The notes beneath the pieces were generated by a model. The model did not search any database. It was not told where the DNA came from and worked only from the letters and a program-made list of their open reading frames with translations. DNA of 64,000 nt from Planctomycetota bacterium (lineage in GTDB: Bacteria; Planctomycetota; Planctomycetia; Pirellulales; Pirellulaceae), in contig JAGWWZ010000001.1 of assembly GCA_018970165.1 (NCBI GenBank), forward strand, positions 1-64,000. Reading direction: 5' to 3'. Below, one piece after another: positions 5,051 to 44,491 of the stretch. How positions within the stretch are numbered: the first letter of the stretch is position 1; every line of letters begins with the position of its first letter. Position numbers and translations under genes: made by a program.

Positions 5051-5505
5051 GTTTGCAGAGGTTGATCGGAAACGATTTGGTAGGCCGAAGCGATTTCGCT
5101 AGGAATTCGCTTCGGCATGCGCGTTGAGAAATCGATATAGGCCCAATTGGTGTGGGCAACCGCCAAGAGCGTTTCTTTTAACGGGCCGTTCGGATCATCT
5201 TTAGGTGGGTCGTTCCGCACCATGTGGTATCGCCGCAGCGATGTCACCTTCTTCATATCAGCAACCCAAGTACGAATGGTCACCCGATCGCGAGCGTATG
5301 CTGGCTGCAGGTACTCAATTTGGTGAAGCCTCGCCACCCAGCCCGCGCCATGTTGTTGATAGCGTTCTGCCGACCAACCGAGGGCGGATGAGTGAGCTAA
5401 TGCAGCATCTTGCATCCACTGCAGGTAAACCACATTGTTGACATGACCAACCAAATCGATATCGCTATCGGAAACGATCAGTTCATGTTTGTAGATTTCG
5501 ATCAT
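5047..5505 (-). CDS. Acyl-CoA thioesterase, 4HBT hotdog fold
   Basis: MIEIYKHELIVSDSDIDLVGHVNNVVYLQWMQDAALAHSSALGW is typical of 4-hydroxybenzoyl-CoA thioesterase-like proteins. Confidence 0.8.
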   Translation of the reverse strand: MIEIYKHELIVSDSDIDLVGHVNNVVYLQWMQDAALAHSSALGWSAERYQQHGAGWVARLHQIEYLQPAYARDRVTIRTWVADMKKVTSLRRYHMVRNDPPKDDPNGPLKETLLAVAHTNWAYIDFSTRMPKRIPSEIASAYQIVSDQPLQT

Positions 5506-5564
5506 TGTGGTTGTTTCTGAAAGTATGGGGATGAAGCCGAGCGGGGGGCAAGCCGCTTTGTGAA

Positions 5565-6158
5565 TCAATCGGGCGACCAGGGTGGAATTGGACTGCCATC
5601 GGGTCCTTTGGGTTTGGCCGGCTTGGATCCTCGGAGGCTGGCTACGTAGGCGGAAACCATGATCAAGTCGTTCTTGTTGCCGATGCGAGTTCCCCACGCG
5701 GGCATCGCACCTCCCGCGACCCCCTCGTTGATCACTTTGTAGATATCGGTGACCCCCTTGATGTGCTTGTAGTTTTCATCGCACAAGTTGGGGCCGACCA
5801 ATCCCCCTCCGTCCGCTCCGTGGCATGAGACGCAATTGACCTTGAAGATCGATTGGCCGACAACGATCCACTCCGGATCTTGGGAGTAGGTGTAGATCGT
5901 TTTAGAATCAGGGGTCAAGTCTCCGATCTTCTTGTATTTCTTTCGGGTGTTGGCATCCATGGCTGCTAGATATTGATCCTCCAAGGATCGGCCTTCTGCT
6001 CCGACGTGGAAGTACAAGATGTAAATAGGTGAAATGACCACGGTGATGATGAACAACCATGTCCACCAACCGGGGAGCGGGTTGTCGTATTCGCGGATTC
6101 CATCGTAGGAGTGTCCTAAGGTGACATCGTTTTGGGGTGCCGTGGGGGTGGATGCCAT
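5565..6158 (-). CDS. ccoP: cbb3-type cytochrome oxidase subunit III-like (CcoP), single CxxCH
   Basis: YDGIREYDNPLPGWWTWLF (CcoP N-terminal signature), one TM, one heme c motif CVSCH; start MASTPTAP at 6158. Confidence 0.83.
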   Translation of the reverse strand: MASTPTAPQNDVTLGHSYDGIREYDNPLPGWWTWLFIITVVISPIYILYFHVGAEGRSLEDQYLAAMDANTRKKYKKIGDLTPDSKTIYTYSQDPEWIVVGQSIFKVNCVSCHGADGGGLVGPNLCDENYKHIKGVTDIYKVINEGVAGGAMPAWGTRIGNKNDLIMVSAYVASLRGSKPAKPKGPDGSPIPPWSPD

Positions 6159-6373
6159 CAGTTCGGTCTCCCGTTCGAGGAGGGATTTGTGTTTTGCTGG
6201 GGTCTGGGATCGACGACTTCGTCGCTCAATGGGATCGAGCCGTAGCGATGGGTGGATTCCCGTCGCAGGGAGGCGGTCCAAGCGACAATGGCGACAAAGC
6301 AACTTGCGAAAATCACCAGTGCGAGTTCATCGAATACCGAGTAATCGAGCCATGACACAACATCTTTGAGCAT
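6158..6373 (-). CDS. Small one-TM protein, CcoQ-like position in cbb3 operon
   Basis: MLKDVVSWLDYSVFDELALVIFASCFVAIVAW...; sits between ccoNO and ccoP with overlapping start/stop. Confidence 0.6.
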   Translation of the reverse strand: MLKDVVSWLDYSVFDELALVIFASCFVAIVAWTASLRRESTHRYGSIPLSDEVVDPRPQQNTNPSSNGRPN

Positions 6374-6395
6374 CTCGATCCCTTTCCATTCCTTC

Positions 6396-8840
6396 CTACT
6401 GAGCGCCTGAATCGCGATCTGCCCACTCGGGTGCAGATCCCGGTCTGGCAGCGGCGGTTGCTGTAGTGGTTTCTGCATTCGCGGGCGCTGCAGCGGGCTC
6501 TTCCGTTTTGTAGAGGTCGGTACCCAATCGCTGCAGGTATGCGATCAAAGCAATAGCCGTCGAGTCCTTGATCAATTGGCCGTTGTAATCAACGCTTTCA
6601 CCTTGCGAGATAATCTCGGCGGCGATCTTGTCTGCTTGAAGTCGAGCTACCTCGGGAGATTTTTCGATATCGAATGGGTAGACCGCTCCAAGATAGCTCG
6701 CGGCTCGGACTCGATCGGTGATGGCGTTGAAATTGAGTCGTTCATCCAGGAGGTGTCTGTAACGGGGCATGATAGAACCCTCCGACCGACTCGTTGGGTT
6801 TTCTAAGTGTTGCCAATGCCATAAGCTGCTTTGCCGTCCCCCCTCGCGAGCCAGATCGGGGCCGATACGGCGAGATCCCCATTGGAACGGGTGGTCGTAA
6901 ATCGATTCGCCCGCTTTGCTGAAGTCACCATAGCGAAGCTTTTCCGCGACCATGGGGCGAATCATCTGGGAGTGACAGTTGTAGCAACCCTCCGAAACGT
7001 AAACATCGCGGCCCGCCAATTCCAAAGGTGTATAAGGTTTGACCGTTGAGATTGTGGGAACGTTGCTTCGGATCAGGAACATCGGGACGATTTCAAGAGC
7101 ACTTGCGATCAAGACCGCAATGGTGGTAACGATCGTAAACCAAATGGGAAAACGTTCCCATCTGCGATGCCAATTCATTTGGGAAACTTCGTCCACTTTA
7201 GCTGCGAGTTCGAGGACCGGCTTCCCTTTGAGGGTGCTTTGGGGAATCGGCGCATCGACGTGTTCGCGAGTCAACCTAGGAGCGGAGTAGACCGGTACTT
7301 CGTAGGTGGCAGGTCGGTTCAGCCAAGTCATGACGGCGTTGATCGCCAACATCGAAATACCTACCACATAGAGCGATCCCGCGATGACTCGCGTCCACCA
7401 GAATGGGACTACGGTTTGGATCGTTTGCAAGAAGCTTGGGTATTTCAAACTGCCGGACTCGTCCAAAGCTCGCCACATCAGCCCCTCGGTAATACCTGCA
7501 ATGTAGATAGGGATGATGTACAGCAGGATGCCAATGGTTCCGATCCAAAAGTGCCATTCGGCCATCTTGGTGCTCCACAGCTTGGTCTGGTACAGGCGAG
7601 GCAACAGCCAATAGATCATCCCAAATGTCATGAAGCCGTTCCATCCGAGTGCTCCGGAGTGAACGTGCGCGATCGTCCAGTCGGTGTAGTGGGATAACGC
7701 ATTGACGCTCTTGATCGACAACATAGGGCCTTCAAAAGTTGCCAGGCCGTAGAATGTCAGACCCACCACGAAGAACTTGAGGATCGGATCGGTCGTGACT
7801 TTGTGCCAAGCCCCTCGCAATGTCAGCAGGCCATTGATCATGCCACCCCAAGAAGGCATCCACAGCATGATGCCAAAGAGCATACCGAAAGTGCTGGCCC
7901 ATTCCGGCAGCGCGGTGTAATGCAAGTGGTGGGGACCAGCCCAGATGTAGATGAATACCAGCGACCAGAATTGAATGATGCTGAGCTTGTAACTAAAGAC
8001 GGGTCGCTCTGCTGCTTTGGGAAGGAAGTAATACATCAAACCCAGAAACGGAATTGTCAAGAAGAAGGCGACTGCGTTGTGACCGTACCACCACTGCATG
8101 AAAGCATCTTGAACACCCGCGTAGATCGGGTAGCTCTTCCACAATCCGCTTCCTGTCCATGCTCCAACTGGGATGACCAAATTGTTGAAGACATGCAGTA
8201 CCGTCACGGTCACAATCGTGGCGATGTAGAACCACAGAGCCACATACATGTGCCGTTCTCGGCGATTGACGAGAGTCATCATAAAATTGAGACCGAAAAA
8301 CAGGACCCAGACGACAGCAATCGCGAGATCAATCGGCCACTCGAGTTCGGCGTATTCTTTGCTTTGCGTTATTCCGAGAGGGAGCGTGATGGCGGCCGCG
8401 ACAATGATCGCTTGCCATCCCCAGAAGTGGAGGCGGCTCAGAACATCGCTCCACATGCGGCATTTGCAAAGACGCTGGGTGCTGTAGTACACGGCCGCGA
8501 AGATCGCATTTCCGGCGAAAGCAAAAATCGCTGCGTTGGTATGCAATGGGCGAAGTCGCGCGAACGACAGGATTGGGGAAACGTCGCTTCGAAGCCCCTC
8601 CGAGATCCAAGGGGCTGCTAGCAGGACCCCCACGAGAACTCCCGCGATGGTGCCTATCAAGCCCCAGAAAATCGTGGCAGTCACAAACATCCGGACTACC
8701 GCATCGTCGTAACTGTACTGTTCCATCGCCTCCGAGCCGGAGGCATCACTGCGTGAAAACGCCAAAGAATTTGCAGACATTAGGAGAACAATTAGCAGGA
8801 GTTGAGTCGCGTGGGGTTCGCTCGAACGCCGAGCACGCAT
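6396..8840 (-). CDS. ccoNO: cbb3-type cytochrome c oxidase, fused subunits I and II (CcoNO)
   Basis: 814 aa; N-terminal heme-copper oxidase subunit I (LRPLHTNAAIFAFAGNAIFA, WWYGHNAVAFFLT, HVHSGALGWNG) followed in the same ORF by CcoO (DVYVSEGCYNCHSQMIRP). Confidence 0.92.
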   Translation of the reverse strand: MRARRSSEPHATQLLLIVLLMSANSLAFSRSDASGSEAMEQYSYDDAVVRMFVTATIFWGLIGTIAGVLVGVLLAAPWISEGLRSDVSPILSFARLRPLHTNAAIFAFAGNAIFAAVYYSTQRLCKCRMWSDVLSRLHFWGWQAIIVAAAITLPLGITQSKEYAELEWPIDLAIAVVWVLFFGLNFMMTLVNRRERHMYVALWFYIATIVTVTVLHVFNNLVIPVGAWTGSGLWKSYPIYAGVQDAFMQWWYGHNAVAFFLTIPFLGLMYYFLPKAAERPVFSYKLSIIQFWSLVFIYIWAGPHHLHYTALPEWASTFGMLFGIMLWMPSWGGMINGLLTLRGAWHKVTTDPILKFFVVGLTFYGLATFEGPMLSIKSVNALSHYTDWTIAHVHSGALGWNGFMTFGMIYWLLPRLYQTKLWSTKMAEWHFWIGTIGILLYIIPIYIAGITEGLMWRALDESGSLKYPSFLQTIQTVVPFWWTRVIAGSLYVVGISMLAINAVMTWLNRPATYEVPVYSAPRLTREHVDAPIPQSTLKGKPVLELAAKVDEVSQMNWHRRWERFPIWFTIVTTIAVLIASALEIVPMFLIRSNVPTISTVKPYTPLELAGRDVYVSEGCYNCHSQMIRPMVAEKLRYGDFSKAGESIYDHPFQWGSRRIGPDLAREGGRQSSLWHWQHLENPTSRSEGSIMPRYRHLLDERLNFNAITDRVRAASYLGAVYPFDIEKSPEVARLQADKIAAEIISQGESVDYNGQLIKDSTAIALIAYLQRLGTDLYKTEEPAAAPANAETTTATAAARPGSAPEWADRDSGAQ

Positions 8841-9298
8841 TGTAACCCTGGAATCGTCCTACCGTCATCTCGGAACGAGTCGGGAGGCTTGAAAAGACCG
8901 CGACAGATTGAAGCAACATCCTTCTTTTTCGCTGTTGAAATAGTGATAACTCAAGCAATTAGCCAACGATTTGCCCCATCGGGACCGCTTCCTCCCCTTC
9001 CCATTCGTACTCCATCAATAGCCTGAAAAGTCATCGCAATCGCTAGACCTACCTTTATCGGCTGTTAATAATGCATCAATTCCAGGGTTTAAGCTGGGGA
9101 CTCCAGATATAGGGTCTTCGGGTTGAACCGAGCATCGGAGTTGTAGGGATTGCTCCTCCGAAGCTTCTCTCCTTTCCCGTGACACCCCGGTAATACATCG
9201 ATCGACCGCGTTCTAAGCTTAGTCAGAATAAAGACGTTGGTCGGTCGAGGCCATGTTTGACGTGTACGTTTCTTATAAACCTTGAGTGGAATCATCGA

Positions 9299-12214
9299 AT
9301 GAGCATTGATCGAAACGCAAGAAAATGCGGGCTGATGCTGGCCATGGCGCTAGCAGCATGCGTTCCCGCGATCGGACAACAAGCACCAGAGCCAACCGCA
9401 CCGGCACCCGACTATCCCCCAATTGAGAAAGTTGCGGAGGGGTACACCAAGGTGGAATCGAAATCCCCGGACCGCGGCTCCCTCTACAACGTCTGGGTGC
9501 GAGACAAAGACGGTCAGATGCTCCTGGAAATCCCCAAAGATTTCATGAGCAAGAAATACTTCATCGCTCTGACGGTCAGCAGCGGCGATCGCTTCGCAGG
9601 TCTCCAAGCGGGCGATTACTACGTTTACTGGCGGATGTACAACAAGCGTCTGGCGCTCATTCTCCCTGAATTGGATATCCGCTCCAATGGTGAGCCAGAA
9701 TCGAAATCGTCGGTCAAGCGACTCTTTACAGACACGGTACTGCTCGATGTGCCGATCGTTGCAATGGTTCCGCGCGGTGGTCCACTGATCGATGCCGACG
9801 CACTGTTTGTCGGACAGGCTTCGAAGTTCTTCGGTCCGTCGGTCCGCATTCAAGATCCGCAGCTCACGAAGATCGTGAAGGCCAAGCCGTTCACCAAGAA
9901 CACGGAGTTGGCGTTTGAAGTCGTGACCGCGGGTGGCAAGTTGCAGACCCTTCACTACTCGCTGAGCGAAGTTCCCGAGGACAACGGATACCGTCCACGG
10001 AAAGCGGATTCGCGCGTGGGTTACTTCGTGACCAACTTCACGGACTTGGGAAGCTACGATGACGACAAGAAACGGGTTCGCTACATCACTCGCTGGCGAT
10101 TGGAAAAGCGCGATCCGACTTTGAAGGTTAGCCCTCCTGTCACTCCGATTCGTTTCTATATCGAACACACCACCCCCGTGCGATACCGACGCTGGGTCAA
10201 GCAAGGGATTGAATATTGGAACAAAGCTTTTGAGAAGGTCGGTTTCTCCGACGCGATCGAAGTCCTCTACCAGGACCCTCGATCCCCGGACACAATGGAC
10301 CTCGATCCCGAGGATGTCCAGTACAACTTCATCCGCTGGCTTAATAATGATATCGGCACTGCCATCGGACCAAGTCGCGTGCATCCCATCACCGGCGAAA
10401 TCCTCGATGCGGATATCGTGTTGACGGACGGTTGGATTCGGCACTTCAACTTCCAGTACTACGATTTGATGCCTGAAATCGCTATGGAAGGGATGAGCTC
10501 CGAGACGATCGCCTGGTTGGGCTCCCATCCCGAGTGGGATCCGCGAGTGCGACTGGCTCCGCCAGCCGAACGCAAACGGTTGCAGGATGTCTATGCCGCT
10601 CAGGCGAAACTTCCCTACGCAGGGCATCCGTTGACGCAAGTGGATTCGCGTCTATTGGGTGACCAACAATACGATGGATTGGTTGGAAGAACCAGCCAAG
10701 TCAATGGCTTCTGCAACGCCGCATTCGGCAAGCAAATGGATATGTCGATGGCTCGTATGGCATTGGACCTGATCGAACTGATGCAGGATCCGAAGCCTGC
10801 CGAGGGTGGTAAACCAGAAGAGAAGAAAGCCGAGAAGCCCAAGGAGGACATGCTCGATGGCATGCCTGAGTCCTTCATAGGTCCCTTGTTGGCAGATCTT
10901 GTCGCCCACGAAGTCGGCCATACCCTCGGACTTCGCCACAACTTCAAGGCGTCCGGTTACCTGTCCTTGAAGGATATCAATTCCAACGCCGTCAAGGGCC
11001 AGAAGACGATTGCCACATCGGTGATGGATTATATACCGATCAATATGCCGTATCAGCTCGACAGTGAGACCAAGGGTGACTACACGATGATTGGCATCGG
11101 CCCCTATGATTACTGGGCGATCGAGTACGGTTACCTGCCTGAAGAGAATAAGCTTCCGGAAATCCTGAAGCGAGCTAGCGAACCGGAAATGCAGTACAGT
11201 ACCGATGAAGACACCAGCGGTCCCGATCCGTTGGCTCGTCGGTACGACTATTCTAAGGATCCACTCGACTACAGCGAAAACCAAATGCGATTGGTCAAGC
11301 TATACCGAGAGCGATTGCTCGACAAGTTTGTCAAAGATGGCGACAGCTGGGCCAAAGCCCGTCGCGGTTATGAATTGACACTTGGCGAACAAACCAAATC
11401 CATCAGCATGATGGCTAACTGGTTGGGAGGCACCACGGTCAATCGCGATAAGAAGGGTGATCCAGGCAATCGTCCATCCTTGATTCCGGTACCTGCCGAA
11501 CAGCAGCGAAAGGCAATGGACTTCGTCATTCGAAATGCGTTCCGAGATGATTCGTTCGGATTGACCAATGACATCCTGAGTCGTTTGACCGTCGACAAGT
11601 GGGCCGATGAAGGTGTTCGCTCGATGGGCGAATCCACCTTCCCGATCCACGACCGTATCCTGGGCATTCAAGCCAGCGCATTGACGATGGTCATGAATCC
11701 GACGACCCTGCGCCGTGTTTTCGACAACGAGCAACTCGTCCCAAGCGATCAAGATGCCGTGACGTTGCCGGAGGTGATGAATCGCCTGCGAACCGAGATT
11801 TGGTCCGAACTGGATGGAAAGTTCGAAGGGGAGGCAACTCCGCGTAAGCCCCGGATCAGCTCTTGGCGTCGCAATCTGCAACGCGAGCACCTCGACCGAC
11901 TGATCGATTTGGCCATTCCTGGAGGTAGCTCAAGCAACAAGGCGATCTCTTCGCTCTCGTTGCAACAACTCAAGGAAGTCAAAGGCAAGATCGACACGGT
12001 GTTGGCAGTTGGTGCTGGTTTGGATCCTTACTCGCAAGCCCACTTGGGTGAGTGCACACAGCGAATCACCAAGGCCCTGGATGCCATTTACATCTACAAC
12101 CAACCTAGCGCCGGTGGTGGTTCACCTCCGCCATTCATCATGCTAGGCAAGGAGAAGGGGATTGTGGAGGTGCCTATGGCCCAAGATCCGTCTCAGGACG
12201 ATAACCGCGAGTAA
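9299..12214 (+). CDS. Secreted zinc-dependent metalloprotease (DUF5117-like N-terminus, M10-like HExxH)
   Basis: Signal peptide, zinc site HEVGHTLGLRHNF, followed by SVMDYIP; about 971 aa. Confidence 0.82.
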   Translation: MSIDRNARKCGLMLAMALAACVPAIGQQAPEPTAPAPDYPPIEKVAEGYTKVESKSPDRGSLYNVWVRDKDGQMLLEIPKDFMSKKYFIALTVSSGDRFAGLQAGDYYVYWRMYNKRLALILPELDIRSNGEPESKSSVKRLFTDTVLLDVPIVAMVPRGGPLIDADALFVGQASKFFGPSVRIQDPQLTKIVKAKPFTKNTELAFEVVTAGGKLQTLHYSLSEVPEDNGYRPRKADSRVGYFVTNFTDLGSYDDDKKRVRYITRWRLEKRDPTLKVSPPVTPIRFYIEHTTPVRYRRWVKQGIEYWNKAFEKVGFSDAIEVLYQDPRSPDTMDLDPEDVQYNFIRWLNNDIGTAIGPSRVHPITGEILDADIVLTDGWIRHFNFQYYDLMPEIAMEGMSSETIAWLGSHPEWDPRVRLAPPAERKRLQDVYAAQAKLPYAGHPLTQVDSRLLGDQQYDGLVGRTSQVNGFCNAAFGKQMDMSMARMALDLIELMQDPKPAEGGKPEEKKAEKPKEDMLDGMPESFIGPLLADLVAHEVGHTLGLRHNFKASGYLSLKDINSNAVKGQKTIATSVMDYIPINMPYQLDSETKGDYTMIGIGPYDYWAIEYGYLPEENKLPEILKRASEPEMQYSTDEDTSGPDPLARRYDYSKDPLDYSENQMRLVKLYRERLLDKFVKDGDSWAKARRGYELTLGEQTKSISMMANWLGGTTVNRDKKGDPGNRPSLIPVPAEQQRKAMDFVIRNAFRDDSFGLTNDILSRLTVDKWADEGVRSMGESTFPIHDRILGIQASALTMVMNPTTLRRVFDNEQLVPSDQDAVTLPEVMNRLRTEIWSELDGKFEGEATPRKPRISSWRRNLQREHLDRLIDLAIPGGSSSNKAISSLSLQQLKEVKGKIDTVLAVGAGLDPYSQAHLGECTQRITKALDAIYIYNQPSAGGGSPPPFIMLGKEKGIVEVPMAQDPSQDDNRE

Positions 12215-35467: not shown

Positions 35468-36541
35468 TTACTCGTCAATGTTCGCAACTTCGCCGCCGTT
35501 ACGCGTAACCAGTGCAGTGAACACTTGAGTCGCGGTCGATGCAGCCATGAAAGTCACAGAACCATCGCCACGAACAACCTGCACTCCGCTGGTGTGGAAG
35601 GAGTAGGGGTTGTTTTCATTGTAGATGTTGATGACCGAGCAACCCTGAAGATTCGGAGTGGCACGGTCTGTACCAGCCAATCCTCGCGGGTGACGGGCAC
35701 TGTTCCAGTCGACATAGGAAGAGTTCAAGGTGAACCCAGGTGGAGTAGTCGTCCAAGTTCCTTGAAAGGGAGCTCCATTAAAGTAGAGTCGCTGTTTGCC
35801 CGCGATCTCAATAAAGCAGATGGTGTTTGAAAGACCATCGGTTACCGCTGCGAATTTTCGTTTCGGGTTGACGACGATTTCCGCGTTCTCCCCACCAGCA
35901 TCATTTGCTCCAAGCATCGAATTATGGGTAGTGGCATTCGGCAAGCCAACGCAAGTCGCCAACGTGCTATCCAGACCGCGCAGGGCAACATAATCGGTCC
36001 GTGGCAGAATGAACTGCACGCCCGACGGGAGAATACCCGCCTGATTGAACCAAGGACCGTAATCCGATTCTGCAGGGAGAGTCGGTGTCGATGGGCAAAT
36101 AAACGTAGGAACAGTCGAGGTCGCCGCAGCGGGGACAACCGCACCCAGGGGTGGCGGCAAGTTGCGAGGATCGATCAGAGGCTTTCTCAGATCGAAGTTT
36201 TGATAGATCGTGTTCCCTTCAATGTAAGGAAGGAGCAGACCGAGAACCCCGAAACTTCGTCGAGCATCCGAGGTGAGAGCAAAAAACGGATTGCCCTGAG
36301 CGGCGTAGGTGTCGGTCAAGCGGAATTGGGTTGCCCATGTGGGTACCCATTTGTTAGCTGATTCGTGGTTGTGCACCGCCATTCCCAATTGTCGCATGTT
36401 GTTGCCACAACTCATTCGTCGTGCCGCCTCGCGTGCGGCTTGTACAGCTGGCAATAACAATCCGACCAAAATACCAATGATCGCAATCACCACCAGCAAC
36501 TCGACCAGCGTAAAGCCATGTCGTCGAGAAGTTCGATTCAT
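35468..36541 (-). CDS. DUF1559 type IV pilin-like (pseudopilin) protein
   Basis: [41 protein letters not shown]; the classic planctomycete DUF1559 N-terminus. Confidence 0.95.
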
Positions 36542-36747: not shown

Positions 36748-37563
36748 CTACCGCCCCTCTCGAAACCAGGGGCAAAGCCATTTGCGGAACCATTCCAGGC
36801 CGGAATCGAGGATGAGTCCCAGTACACCTAGGACGAACGCGTAGAACAGGATGATGTCAAAAGACAAGAGCTTATACTGCATCCGAATTTGGGAACCCAT
36901 ACCAGGTTCTCCAACGGAGTACTCAGCAAGAACCAGATAGACCATGGCTGGTCCGGTTTGGGAGCGAATGCAGTCTAAAACATTGGGAAGGATTTGCTTC
37001 CAAATTACCTCGTAAATGACTTCGAGCTCGGAGGCTCCCAATGTGTATGCCTTGCTGATTGCCTCGTCGCTGACATTGTCTCTGACGGCTTGGAATATCG
37101 TTTGTGTCATGGAGAAAAAAATCCCAAGAGCAACCATCAACACGTACATGCGAAAGCTGATTCCTGCGAACAAGAAATAGAAGGGCATGATTGCGACCGG
37201 CGGAACCTTGGACATGAATGTAATGATTGGACTGATCGGTGCCTCGATCCATCGGTAGCAACCCATAAGGATACCGATGATGGTTGAAGCGATGACACCC
37301 AAACCGAGGCCCAGTGCTAAACGCGACAGAGTAGCCCCGATGTCATTCCAAAACATCGGTGGCTTTGGGGCTTCAGTTGGTCCCTGCATCTTAAAAGCTC
37401 GTTGTATCCCCTCAATCAATTTGGAATAAGAGGGAACGGTCGTCTGCGAGGGATTATTAGCAGTCTGTCTTACCGAGAGCCATTCGTACACCGCAAGCAC
37501 GACGATAACGCCAGCGATTGCGAGCGAAACAAACAGCCACTTGGGAAGATTCCGACGTATCAC
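36748..37563 (-). CDS. NitT/TauT-type ABC transporter permease
   Basis: Multiple TMs; EAA-like loop EAISKAYTLGASELEVIYEVIWKQILPNVL. Confidence 0.85.
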   Translation of the reverse strand: MIRRNLPKWLFVSLAIAGVIVVLAVYEWLSVRQTANNPSQTTVPSYSKLIEGIQRAFKMQGPTEAPKPPMFWNDIGATLSRLALGLGLGVIASTIIGILMGCYRWIEAPISPIITFMSKVPPVAIMPFYFLFAGISFRMYVLMVALGIFFSMTQTIFQAVRDNVSDEAISKAYTLGASELEVIYEVIWKQILPNVLDCIRSQTGPAMVYLVLAEYSVGEPGMGSQIRMQYKLLSFDIILFYAFVLGVLGLILDSGLEWFRKWLCPWFREGR

Positions 37564-37578
37564 TAGAGAGGTTCCAAT

Positions 37579-38709
37579 CTACTTCTTTGACTCGATATAT
37601 GATTTCAGGTAAGAGGCATCGAAGTCCATAGCTCCTTCCTTGTTTCCAAAAGAGAGGTTGATCGGCTCGGGGGTCATACCATACTTCACACAGAAGTCAT
37701 TCACCTTTTTCATGGTCTCTTTTTGGAACAAATCACTGGTGAAGAGCCGGATCGCATCGTTCGGATCCGAGTAAAAGCGAGTCTGCTTGACGATCGTTTT
37801 CATATCTGCCAACTCGAGCTTAGAGAATTTAGCACCGATCCCAACCAGTGTTTGGTCGGAAGTCTTCGGATCCGCCATCCGTTCATTCATGACGTAAAAC
37901 GTCTTCAGAATCGCCATCGCAAAGTCTTTGCCCCCTTTTTTGTTGAGGGAATCTTTACTGACGACAACCATATCGATGATCTCTTCGGGGATTTCCTCGG
38001 AGCTGAAAAGGACTTTGGCATCGCTACGGCTACGCAAGGATTGCATTACAAATGGGTTCCAAACCATGATCGACTGCACGCTTGGGTCTTTTCCTTGGAA
38101 GGCGACGGCAGCTTGTGCCGGATCCATTTGACTAAAAGGGTAATCGGCGTTTGCGACCTTCCGATTTTCCAAACAACGGTCAAAGCAATACTGAGACACA
38201 CTCTTCTCGAGCCCGTGGGTTTTCTTTCCTTTGAGCCCTTCAAGCGAATCGATTCCTGCGGTAATACAAGCATCGGCCCCTGCGCTGGTGGAGGTCGGGA
38301 TGATTGCGACCGCAGCGCGGGAGCGGGCTGCCGGTAGGATATCAATATTGGTGATGCATACCGCATCGGTCATGGATATGCCGTAGAGATTGATGCACTG
38401 GTCGTAATCGGCCAGCACCAACTCGATATCCACGTTGAACTCTTTCTCAATGGAGCCCATCCCGTTTTGAGTGCCATCGATCAAGCCCACTTCGTCAGCT
38501 ACGCCGAAAATACTCCATGAGGGGTATTCGCTCCAAGCCAATCGAAATCTGGCTGGTGGTAGTTTGATGTCTGTGTCGGAGGTGTCTGCGTTAGCAGTCC
38601 GGTTGTTGGTTGCCGTTGTCGCAGGCTTGCTTTCGGTGCATCCCGCGGCGGCCAAGGCCGCGATGAAGCAACTGAGGACGGACCATCTCCACATCGATTT
38701 CATTTTCAT
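37579..38709 (-). CDS. NMT1/SsuA-like ABC substrate-binding lipoprotein
   Basis: Lipobox-like AALAAAGCTES; RFRLAWSEYPSWSIFGVADEVGLID...; typical SBP body. Confidence 0.82.
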   Translation of the reverse strand: MKMKSMWRWSVLSCFIAALAAAGCTESKPATTATNNRTANADTSDTDIKLPPARFRLAWSEYPSWSIFGVADEVGLIDGTQNGMGSIEKEFNVDIELVLADYDQCINLYGISMTDAVCITNIDILPAARSRAAVAIIPTSTSAGADACITAGIDSLEGLKGKKTHGLEKSVSQYCFDRCLENRKVANADYPFSQMDPAQAAVAFQGKDPSVQSIMVWNPFVMQSLRSRSDAKVLFSSEEIPEEIIDMVVVSKDSLNKKGGKDFAMAILKTFYVMNERMADPKTSDQTLVGIGAKFSKLELADMKTIVKQTRFYSDPNDAIRLFTSDLFQKETMKKVNDFCVKYGMTPEPINLSFGNKEGAMDFDASYLKSYIESKK

Positions 38710-38757
38710 CTCTTGTTCTCCGGGTTTTGGAAGTTATCGGTGAAAGCCTTCGTTGAA

Positions 38758-39576
38758 TCATGCCTCGGGAATCTTGGTGTCGTGAGCAGGCGGTTCGCTG
38801 CTCTTCTTCTCTTGCGACAGACCGATCAGTGCGTCGAACTCGTCGTCCGCAGCGGACTTCTGCGCATACTCGAGAAACTCGGACTCTGCCCGCTTGGAAT
38901 CCATGCCGGCCAGTTCGCGGGAGATGCGGGCATTCGCAGATGCCTTTTGACGCATATCGCGAAGGCGTTGCAGTTCCTCGGAGGTCTTGTCGTTGGAAAT
39001 GCCGTTGACCATATCGGCAATCTGCTTTTCCTCCGTCGCTGAAAGGACGTCGGCAACCGCATCGTGCTTTTCTTCCTTGATTTTGTCCAGCTCGCGCATC
39101 AAGCTTTGGATTTGGTTCTTGTGGCCGGTCACATTCTGAACGAGCTGTTTGAGATCCTCGTCGATTTCGTTGGCTCGCTGTTGTTTCTCAGCCAGGGTGC
39201 TGGAGAAGTCTTTGAAGGCGGCCTGGCATTTGGCGTACTCGGGATCATTTTTGATCGCGACCGAGTCGCCGTTGTATTTATCCACCAATTGTTTGGCTCG
39301 CGCGGCAGCTCCGGACTTGAGTTTCTCGAGCTTTTGAATTTCCTCTGTGAGGGAAGTCAGTTTGGCTTTTTTCGCCTCCTCCTGCGCGATCATGGCGCTG
39401 ATCGCATCTTTATACTGATTTAGCCGATTTTTCTTTTCCTGAATGATGCGATCGTAGTTGGCGGAGATGACGGTCGGGTTAGCGCTCAGGGCATCGGCGG
39501 CCGCGTCGATCTTGCCAGTGAACAGATACTTGATTGCTCGAAAAAAACGGCCTATCGCATTGAACATGAGTCTCAA
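38758..39576 (-). CDS. PspA/IM30-family coiled-coil protein
   Basis: RFFRAIKYLFTGKIDAAADAL...YDRIIQEKKNRLNQYKDAISAMIAQEEAKKAKLTSL...; long coiled coil consistent with PspA/Vipp1-type organisation. Confidence 0.72.
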   Translation of the reverse strand: MRLMFNAIGRFFRAIKYLFTGKIDAAADALSANPTVISANYDRIIQEKKNRLNQYKDAISAMIAQEEAKKAKLTSLTEEIQKLEKLKSGAAARAKQLVDKYNGDSVAIKNDPEYAKCQAAFKDFSSTLAEKQQRANEIDEDLKQLVQNVTGHKNQIQSLMRELDKIKEEKHDAVADVLSATEEKQIADMVNGISNDKTSEELQRLRDMRQKASANARISRELAGMDSKRAESEFLEYAQKSAADDEFDALIGLSQEKKSSEPPAHDTKIPEA

Positions 39577-39616
39577 CTCCTCTCGGGGAATTCACTAAGG
39601 GAAAAGGGATCTTGGG

Positions 39617-40342
39617 TTATTCTTTCAGAAAGGACTCGTAGTCGGGGGAGCTTTCGAGTTCCTTCATGCGTTCGTCGGAACGCTTGGCGGCTTCGATCGA
39701 AGCCGCCAATTCGCTCTGGAGTGTATCCATATCGCGTTCCTGGTTCTTGTCGGCGAACCGACGAAATGTTTCGACTGCATCTCGCAAGTGGCCGGAACTC
39801 TCGACAGCTTCGCTGAGAAACCGCTCTCGCTGCTCGAGGGCATCGCGTCGCGCTGGTCCGCTCAGTTGCTGCGCTAGATGATACATTTTTAGGGACTGTT
39901 CGAGTTGATCCACTGCGGCCCAAAAAAGTTGTCTCGCTTGTTTGACAATCTCCATGCTCCGCAACTGGATGCCAGGGGTTTGAGCCACCCGCTCGATCTC
40001 GGCTCGATTGACCCGAAGGATCTTCAAGCAATCCTCGGTGCGAGCATCGTGATCGGCCAGGAGACGCTCTGCTAGATCGTTGAGCTTGGTTTCCTCGCGA
40101 CGAATCTGCTCGGCCACTTGGTCCCGCATCGCTTTTTCGGTGATCGCATCCATCCGAAAGATAAACCGTGTCGCGAACCAGCCGATCCCCACCAAGACGC
40201 CGACCAATCCAGCAGCGTTGAGCCAGTCGACGCCCCCCACCCCCCAGGACATGAGCCAAGCCGTCGCGCCACCGACGATCGGCAATACGACCGACGGCGC
40301 GACGAACAGCTCGTTCATAATTCGCTTTCGCAGATCGTCCAA
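39617..40342 (-). CDS. Hypothetical protein: two N-terminal TMs plus cytoplasmic coiled coil
   Basis: VAPSVVLPIVGGATAWLMSW, LNAAGLVGVLVGIGWFATRFIF, then an alpha-helical charged region. Confidence 0.65.
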   Translation of the reverse strand: MDDLRKRIMNELFVAPSVVLPIVGGATAWLMSWGVGGVDWLNAAGLVGVLVGIGWFATRFIFRMDAITEKAMRDQVAEQIRREETKLNDLAERLLADHDARTEDCLKILRVNRAEIERVAQTPGIQLRSMEIVKQARQLFWAAVDQLEQSLKMYHLAQQLSGPARRDALEQRERFLSEAVESSGHLRDAVETFRRFADKNQERDMDTLQSELAASIEAAKRSDERMKELESSPDYESFLKE

Positions 40343-40372
40343 AGCAGTCTGTCCTATTCCCCTTGCTCGATT

Positions 40373-41908
40373 TCAATACGGCACTTGACCCACAACGAAG
40401 CTCACCCGGGTTTGCCCGGTGATTTCGCCGGTGACGACGCGCATTCGCTCCGGTGGAATGCCGAGGGCCAGCAGATGCTTCAGCGCGGCGTCTCCTCGCT
40501 GCTGCGCCAGTTGAAGATTGGCTTGCATGTCTCCAGCCTTCGAAGCGTTTCCGCGGATAGTAAGATAGTATTGCGGCCAAGCCAGCAGTTTCTGACATAA
40601 CTCGTCGAGAATCCGTTTGCTCTGATCGGACAATGTCGCGCTGCCGCGCAGAAAGACAAGCTCCGGTACGCTGAGCGTACCTACCGTTACCAACCCGTCC
40701 CACTGCTCGTCGCTGAGAGCCTTTAGTTTTTCCTCGACCCTTACCGATTCAGAAGATAGACCAGGATGAAAGTTGCGGGTCTGAAGATTCTCTAACGGGC
40801 GATCAAAGAAATAACGATTGAATTTCTCGTCGCTGCCAATGCTCGATATCGCTCCCGATTTCGAAAGAACGGTGGCAATTCGCCCGAGCATGTCTTCGAC
40901 ATGAACGACTGCTCCCGCACGCTTGCCGAAGTGAGCGAAGTTCTCTTGCGTGTTCTTCCATTGGATCCCATCTACCAAGCGATTTGCCTGTTCCGCAGTT
41001 AGTTCCTGCTTGGTCTGCTTGGCATCTTCGAGTAACAAGCGAATCAAGGCTTGTTTCTCACTGTAGGAGTGAAGTGCGGTGAAGTAGGCTTCGAGGACCG
41101 ATTCGACCACAGGGCCATTTTTGAGCAAGTAATCTCGGCTGACGACCAACGAATCAACGATATAACCCGTGAATCGCGAACTATCGACCAACACATGGAG
41201 TTGATCGTTGGCCAGTATTTGACTGACGAACGGTTCCCAAGTCACATACACTTCGTTGGTAGCGGGGGAAGCAGCCCGATAGCGGGCGATCAATTTTTCG
41301 GGCGAATCGACTGTCTCGATGGCCGAGGCTCCGACATTCTTGAGATCGAAGTCCTGCATCACCACGCGAACAAGGGTCTCGCTGGGGGAATCCCCGACGA
41401 GCACAAAACGAACGTCGCTCTGATTGAGTCGATCGATATCGGGGAACTTGCCCTTATAAGCCAACATCGCATCGGCTCCGCGCGTTTCGTCGATGATCGC
41501 GACGATCGTAGCGGCCGGAGCATCGTTGCTCGAGAGAGTCTTCAGGAACGCGTCGATGGGGAACGCAGCCATCTGTAGCGTACCCTTTTGCAAACCCTCA
41601 GCACGCTTGGCGTAATTGGCGCCGTCGTCGACGTTCTTGATGCGAATGCCTCGATCTGCGAGCTGCTTCCGGAACTCCTCACTTCGCAGAATCGCGTATC
41701 CGGAAAAACTGTCGAGACCGAGCTGGATTTCATGCCTGTAGCGACTCGTTCCCGATGTCTTCTCAACTTTTTCGTTCTCTTGCTGCTGGGCTTGCTCGGC
41801 CTGCTGCTGAGACCGACGAGGATAAATCACCAAACGCCAGATCGAAACTCCGATCCCGAACAGGACGAGCCAAACAAGGGCGACGAGTACAATCTTGGCT
41901 TTGCTCAC
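40373..41908 (-). CDS. Fused substrate-binding protein and OmpA-like C-terminal domain, N-terminal TM anchor
   Basis: N-term TM; SBP-like central part (IQLGLDSFSGYAILRSEEFRKQLADRGI...VYVTWEPFVSQIL); OmpA-like C-term (VFLRGSATLSDQSKRILDELCQKLLAWPQYYLTIRGNASKAGDMQANLQLAQQRGDAALKHLLALGIPPERMRVV). Confidence 0.8.
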   Translation of the reverse strand: MSKAKIVLVALVWLVLFGIGVSIWRLVIYPRRSQQQAEQAQQQENEKVEKTSGTSRYRHEIQLGLDSFSGYAILRSEEFRKQLADRGIRIKNVDDGANYAKRAEGLQKGTLQMAAFPIDAFLKTLSSNDAPAATIVAIIDETRGADAMLAYKGKFPDIDRLNQSDVRFVLVGDSPSETLVRVVMQDFDLKNVGASAIETVDSPEKLIARYRAASPATNEVYVTWEPFVSQILANDQLHVLVDSSRFTGYIVDSLVVSRDYLLKNGPVVESVLEAYFTALHSYSEKQALIRLLLEDAKQTKQELTAEQANRLVDGIQWKNTQENFAHFGKRAGAVVHVEDMLGRIATVLSKSGAISSIGSDEKFNRYFFDRPLENLQTRNFHPGLSSESVRVEEKLKALSDEQWDGLVTVGTLSVPELVFLRGSATLSDQSKRILDELCQKLLAWPQYYLTIRGNASKAGDMQANLQLAQQRGDAALKHLLALGIPPERMRVVTGEITGQTRVSFVVGQVPY

Positions 41909-43735: not shown

Positions 43736-43810
43736 TCGCTACGATAGGGAACTCTTGAACGGCAGCGTGTGGTCTCTGAGAACCAGAGTCGGTTTAGATT
43801 CGAACGAGGA

Positions 43811-44491
43811 ATGGGAGTTGGTGGAATGCGTGATTGGAAGGATCGGCTAGGAATTTTCGCCTCTGCCGCGTGTGCTGTCCATTGCGCGGCAACCCCGTTC
43901 TTGGTGGCAGCGCTACCGACCCTGAAACTGACTGAATGGATGGCCGATCCGAGGTTTCACCAAATTGCAGCGGTGATTTGCTGCAGTTTGGTGGCGATCG
44001 CAATTGTGCCAACAACTCTCCGATTTCGCGACCTCGGCCTGTTCTCTTTCGCATCATCGGGTTTGGGATTGATTCTTGCCGCCGCCTTCCTGGTCCCCGA
44101 TACTTGCTGCTCGAGCAGCAACTGCTCCATCGAAGGAAGTGGGATTCTGGCCAGTTCTCACGCCGGCTCAGATCACACCCATGATGGGCATTCCCACGAT
44201 GATCATTCGCATCATGATCACACGCATCATCATCATTCGAGCATTGGCCAAACTCCTGCATCGGAACAAGCCGAGTCTCCTACTCTCCTGATGGCGGGGA
44301 TGAGCATCGCTCAACCATGGATGACGCCAGTTGGAGGGTTGTTGCTGATCGTAGCTCACGGACTGAACATGAGAAGGCGATGGAGGTCGGAATGCGGCAG
44401 GGCGAATTGCTGCGCGGGACAGCCAGAGGCCGAACTTCTCCAGATGCCCAACGCATCAACCGGCGATTCGACGTTGGCTCGTGCCTCGTAA
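43811..44491 (+). CDS. MerC-domain membrane protein with His-rich loop
   Basis: DRLGIFASAACAVHCAATPFLVAALPTL (MerC-like) and loop HAGSDHTHDGHSHDDHSHHDHTHHHHS; GTG/ATG alternatives at 43811 or 43826. Confidence 0.75.
   Translation: MGVGGMRDWKDRLGIFASAACAVHCAATPFLVAALPTLKLTEWMADPRFHQIAAVICCSLVAIAIVPTTLRFRDLGLFSFASSGLGLILAAAFLVPDTCCSSSNCSIEGSGILASSHAGSDHTHDGHSHDDHSHHDHTHHHHSSIGQTPASEQAESPTLLMAGMSIAQPWMTPVGGLLLIVAHGLNMRRRWRSECGRANCCAGQPEAELLQMPNASTGDSTLARAS

Follow-up and report, generated by a model that had tools for sequence, protein, structure and literature searches.

What would place a coiled-coil protein resembling PspA/IM30 between the genes of a solute importer? This question is raised by a five-gene operon on the minus strand of the first 64,000 nucleotides of contig JAGWWZ010000001.1 (the whole stretch analyzed, hereafter the window), from a Planctomycetota bacterium of the family Pirellulaceae (assembly GCA_018970165.1). 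Read in the order of transcription, the operon (36748-41908) encodes a substrate-binding protein (SBP) fused to an OmpA-like domain (SBP-OmpA), a coiled-coil protein with two transmembrane (TM) helices (2TM), the PspA-like coiled coil (CC), an SBP lipoprotein and an ATP-binding cassette (ABC) permease. Its sequence features and distribution make it probable, if far from certain, that a membrane coat of the PspA type, served by a dedicated Vps4-like AAA+ ATPase, is coupled here to a NitT/TauT-type importer. The five genes are as follows.

40373..41908, minus strand: SBP-OmpA fusion, 511 amino acids (aa), from Pfam/TIGR domain matches and TM prediction
39617..40342, minus strand: 2TM coiled-coil protein, 241 aa, two TM helices, candidate receptor or anchor of the coat
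38758..39567, minus strand: CC, 269 aa, putative divergent PspA/IM30-type (ESCRT-III superfamily) coiled coil, tail ending KIPEA, from profile, fold and orthologues
37579..38709, minus strand: SBP lipoprotein, 376 aa, TIGR03427-like, from its TIGR03427 match
36748..37563, minus strand: NitT/TauT-type ABC permease, 271 aa, from PF00528 and TauC/NtrB matches

The operon and its AAA+ partner

No partner is more tightly linked to CC than the AAA+ ATPase, and this link is the firmest new fact. Among 149 genomes of the family, representing 68 genera, CC was found in 34, spread over 17 genera. The ATPase was present in 32 of these 34 genomes and in none of the 115 CC-negative ones (Fisher p 1.5e-30, a value inflated by relatedness); the two CC genomes in which it was not detected, G398 and G429, are both fragmented assemblies. 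The distance between the two genes is under 10 kb in 17 genomes, and in 8 it is below 500 bp. Furthermore, the ATPase was beside or near CC in 7 of 8 matches outside the family, and in the distant planctomycete loci retrieved with the CC profile, CC mostly adjoins an AAA+ ATPase of about 600 aa. Divergence of the two proteins is correlated (r = 0.91 over 13 loci), as shared descent would also give.

The C-terminal domain of the ATPase is intact (Walker A GPIGGGKT, Walker B VDEADT, RRPGR), and its N-terminal half, read by eye, contains a Walker-B-like stretch (LIEAAD) and no Walker A lysine. Its nearest solved relatives are VCP/Cdc48/p97, with Vps4 lower in the PDB list. PF00004 was the sole domain match, and no MIT domain, which accompanies the AAA+ domain in Vps4-type ATPases, was detected.

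In the window genome, the orthologue of this ATPase (L068:10554-12356; 59% identity) lies on contig C158 with an NMT1-OmpA orthologue (68%) and a vWA gene, while an ABC ATPase orthologue is found on contig C30. The window operon is therefore one part of a dispersed system, larger than the five genes first proposed, since orthologues of its missing parts lie on these two contigs. At other loci (L040, L043, L048, L054 and others), genes for the AAA+ ATPase, NMT1/OmpA, vWA, SBP-OmpA, 2TM, CC and SBP form a single run, joined in several by permease or ABC ATPase genes; L048 and L054 hold the long run AAA+/NMT1-OmpA/vWA/SBP-OmpA/2TM/CC/SBP/permease.

The original prediction had proposed clustering of homologues in related genomes as a test of a shared system, and our neighborhood survey revealed conserved clusters. 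In 24 related loci, 2TM follows SBP-OmpA wherever the contig extends that far, and CC (16 loci), SBP (18) and permease (14) come in the same order. Because this arrangement recurs across 24 loci, the gene order is not due to chance, and most Pirellulaceae copies retain it. CC is missing from the operon in L018, L019 and L023; in the first two, an ABC ATPase gene directly follows the permease and genes for vWA and NMT1/OmpA proteins lie upstream. At three further loci (L010:7133-7855, L014:7936-8658 and L025:6716-7438) the operon stops after 2TM, with CC elsewhere or absent from the locus sequence.

Other genes were observed around CC and the ATPase. In distant planctomycetes, SPFH/Band_7 and very large DUF3686 AAA proteins are encoded beside the pair (L044:4545-6560, L042:3464-5479 and 5489-10945, L041:10739-16105), which is another membrane-linked context, here free of the importer. 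One genome has a response-regulator/HATPase/FHA protein adjoining CC and AAA+ (L052:12279-13595), and another an HD-domain protein adjoining 2TM and CC (L047:11197-12537); both hint at signaling links. Next to the vWA, NMT1-OmpA and AAA+ genes on C158 lie genes for a sigma factor of the sigma-70 family and a peptidase of the M50 (site-2-protease) type (L068:6492-7064 and 5390-6487), possibly regulators of the module or unrelated to it.

These distributions bear on an alternative in which CC and the ATPase are a self-contained membrane-maintenance pair, while an ordinary importer shares an operon with CC in some lineages. Such a pair would agree with the five family genomes in which CC and AAA+ occur without SBP-OmpA, which makes the importer optional, and with the SPFH/Band_7 or response-regulator/FHA genes that the pair adjoins elsewhere. 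However, SBP-OmpA, present in 29 of the 149 genomes, was accompanied by CC in every case (29/29; Fisher p 4.3e-26, likewise inflated by relatedness) and lay no more than 1.2 kb from it in 17 genomes. Moreover, the order SBP-OmpA/2TM/CC/SBP/permease persists across families at 34-50% identity. We consider two neighboring modules an unlikely explanation, albeit one to be taken seriously. Coupling of the coat to the importer is supported, since SBP-OmpA never occurs without CC in this sample.

The importer, SBP-OmpA and 2TM

The permease had been assigned to the NitT/TauT type, and its matches bear this out (PF00528, E 8.6e-16; TauC, E 4e-23), the nearest proteins being TauC/NtrB. TIGR03427, the model for urea-carboxylase-associated SBPs, matched both the SBP lipoprotein (E 2e-45, 155.3 bits) and the SBP domain of SBP-OmpA (E 1.5e-9, 37.5 bits). 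Because they match the same model, the two modules are related and, judged by these matches, are paralogues of one family; the two different substrate-binding modules first described are thus relatives. Both scores fall far below the equivalog cut-off of 333.9 bits, so urea is not established as the ligand, and no solved structure of the family was found from which to infer one. Like the importers TauABC and SsuABC and those with a TIGR03427 SBP, the system has an SBP, a BPD_transp_1 permease and an ATPase of matching families, the SBP being recognized by TIGR03427/SsuA-type matches and the ATPase on C30 assigned by homology alone. It differs from them in the low equivalog scores of the window SBP and in having one SBP copy fused to TM and OmpA parts.

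SBP-OmpA consists of an N-terminal TM helix (residues 6-24), the SBP domain and an OmpA-like domain (419-492). OmpA-like domains usually bind the diaminopimelate of peptidoglycan through an Asp and an Arg. The OmpA-like domain foreseen from the letters alone is clearly present (E 9.5e-11, with a clear OmpA fold match), but the canonical Asp is lost, which weakens the assumption of a peptidoglycan tether. Ser456 stands at its position, whereas Arg471 and a neighboring Asn are invariant; in all 17 aligned domains the Arg is kept, while Ser, Arg, Ile or Gly takes the place of the Asp. With one residue of the binding pair missing, a wall tether by SBP-OmpA should not be assumed.

No ABC ATPase gene was found beside the permease or within the window operon, and one of the SBPs carries an anchored OmpA-like domain. 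These features would suit a system that senses a ligand instead of importing it, in which the permease has lost its dedicated ATPase gene and signals to the coat whether the SBP is occupied, transporting nothing. Against this, the C30 ATPase is 66% identical to the operon-encoded ATPase of L018, and the ATPase gene stands directly after the permease in L040, as it does in L018 and L019. A pure sensor is thus distinctly improbable.

2TM has two TM helices and gave no reliable family match in the Pfam/TIGR domain search; our guess is that it may serve as membrane receptor or anchor of the coat. Kinship of 2TM with Snf7 or PspA was considered and rejected, as neither hhalign (probability 2.8% with PspA) nor the fold search supported it.

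The CC protein, its gene and the surroundings

The window CC matched PF04012, the PspA/IM30/Vipp1 family, at E 0.1 and 12.6 bits (gathering cut-off, 33.9 bits). Among 23 CC homologues, comprising orthologues and distant homologues, PF04012 was the commonest Pfam match (17/23, best E 2.3e-6). A search of relatives' genomes gave matches at the CC positions of G395, G426 and G436 that were below the cut-off (20-28 bits) and covered most of the model. In the window genome, the PF04012 search found no canonical PspA, the best non-CC match reaching 11.4 bits. Several sister genomes (G395 and G436 among them) hold canonical PspA as well as CC, which indicates that CC is a separate paralogue.

Structure prediction, with one AlphaFold2 model per protein from shallow alignments, gave a putative all-helical hairpin of moderate quality for CC (predicted local distance difference test 71, predicted template modeling score 0.43). 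The eight top PDB folds were all Vipp1 (213-249 columns, E 1.2e-3 to 1.6e-2). hhalign paired CC with canonical planctomycete PspA at E 2.7e-4 and a probability of 42% (2TM as negative control, 2.8%; positive control, 87%), while only 17% was reached with PF04012-positive proteins from the order. The hydrophobic moment of CC peaks in residues 1-18 (0.62 vs a median of 0.25), and the first 22 residues carry a net +3. CC is therefore predicted to begin, as PspA-family proteins do, with a membrane-binding helix, judged by amphipathicity only; it is followed by an (N/D)P motif common to PspA, which was read by eye.

CC resembles PspA/IM30/Vipp1 in length, in its N-terminal helix with the motif and, tentatively, in predicted fold. 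It differs in its sub-cut-off scores, its coexistence with canonical PspA and its conserved tail, (I/L/V)PE with at most one further residue in 23 of 23 members. It is also the most conserved protein of the operon (median identity 80% vs 52-63% for the other members). Taken together, profile and model suggest that CC is a divergent PspA/IM30 relative below the family cut-off, weakly so for the window copy. The similarity to PspA/IM30 claimed in the original prediction, and proposed there as a test by profile search, was accordingly found in profiles and fold although below the Pfam cut-off, and together with the clustering of homologues it supports the shared-system idea. That CC is instead a generic coiled coil without kinship to PspA, in an ordinary NitT/TauT importer operon with an incidental AAA+ link, would fit its low PF04012 score and the spurious matches that coiled coils yield, but is very improbable: PF04012 leads among members, the fold search ranks Vipp1 first, and CC is strongly linked to the AAA+ ATPase.

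All five open reading frames (ORFs) lie where they had been predicted, co-directional on the minus strand, with spacers of 30, 49, 48 and 15 bp. For CC, the predicted 3' end (38758) stands, whereas the start moves from TTG 39576 to ATG 39567, because the ATG is preceded by a GAGAGGAG ribosome-binding site and orthologues begin at the same point. An overlapping ORF of 376 aa (39573-40703) was judged spurious, since two conserved frames, those of 2TM and SBP-OmpA, already cover that DNA. An Rfam search near the operon found no riboswitch or other RNA. A sigma-70 scan of the operon region found no promoter-like site and was uninformative, as was a terminator scan in which 13 of 14 terminator-like sites lay on the opposite strand. 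Downstream of the operon, 35468-36541 encodes a DUF1559/H-X9-DG prepilin-like protein that is probably unrelated. Elsewhere in the window, 43769-44491 encodes a predicted membrane protein with a strongly His-rich stretch (HDHSHDDHSHHDHTHHHH), metal-binding in appearance.

A possible mechanism and its relation to known systems

In the model of an importer-coupled coat, whose physical interactions we infer beyond the observed gene order, domains, partner genes and co-occurrence, the amphipathic helix at the N terminus of CC would attach it to the inner membrane from the cytoplasmic side. CC would then polymerize, with 2TM anchoring or nucleating the coat. The C158 ATPase would pull on the CC tail and recycle the coat, as Vps4 does on ESCRT-III. 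The two SBP domains, membrane-anchored or lipidated, would hand a small solute over to the permease, with the stand-alone C30 ATPase supplying the energy. Finally, SBP-OmpA may sense substrate occupancy or envelope strain and signal through 2TM to direct coat assembly around the importer. The receptor role of 2TM, the sensing step and any wall tether are guesses.

Several points weigh against this model. Every CC member tested scores under the PF04012 cut-off (sister orthologues reach at most 27.6 bits). The CC model is moderate, with no fold match at E 0.001 and generic coiled coils close behind Vipp1. 2TM shows no link to PspA or Snf7. The C30 ATPase sits among unrelated genes and is assigned by orthology alone. 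CC and AAA+ occur without SBP-OmpA not only in the five family genomes but also in most distant ones. Furthermore, related genomes are not independent observations, metagenome-assembled genomes are fragmented and sampling is uneven.

A bolder version of the coupled coat is that CC and AAA+ form a planctomycete ESCRT-III/Vps4-like machine, a polymer controlled by and acting on the periplasm-facing importer, so that remodeling would be coupled to uptake; we regard this as conceivable but doubtful. As in archaeal and eukaryotic ESCRT-III/Vps4 systems, an ESCRT-III-superfamily protein appears to be paired with a Cdc48/Vps4-like ATPase. SPFH and substrate-binding genes occur in the vicinity of CC and AAA+, as they do near some archaeal ESCRT systems (Makarova et al. 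2024, PMC10936438). In contrast to those systems, the ATPase here is closest to Cdc48/p97, no MIT was detected and the coat would be PspA-like.

Operons of this kind are already known. Ravi et al. 2024 (PMC11237479) described examples (such as OGG56892.1) that combine PspA, TM-Snf7, a double AAA+, an ABC ATPase, a permease and PBPB-OmpA, and suggested a link between remodeling and solute transport. Their operons share with ours the ABC ATPase and permease and the solute-binding/OmpA fusion, and apparently also the PspA-type coiled coil, which here scores below the family cut-off, and an AAA+ protein whose N-terminal copy is probably inactive. However, the window genome splits the set over contigs C171, C158 and C30, so that permease, ABC ATPase and SBP/OmpA fusion do not share one operon there, as they do in L040. 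The window system also has the 2TM coiled coil, which belongs to no known family, as well as a vWA protein and an additional NMT1/OmpA fusion; identity of 2TM with the 'Snf7 homolog with a TM segment' of that paper could not be confirmed. Planctomycetes are not named in its main text, and overlap with its supplements is possible. Our literature search found no paper on the full gene combination and none on planctomycete phage-shock-protein systems beyond Makarova et al. Our additions are a description of the planctomycete form, with its vWA protein, second fusion to OmpA and dispersed genes, and a measurement of how often the parts occur together.

By analogy, the module may parallel the ESCRT-III/Vps4 pair of eukaryotes, with a connection to an importer, in bacteria known for unusual internal membranes. 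A PspA-like protein and a Cdc48/Vps4-like ATPase that occur together in 17 genera of one family, and as neighbors in distant planctomycetes, would offer a specific pair to purify, and the link to the importer would provide a measurable output.

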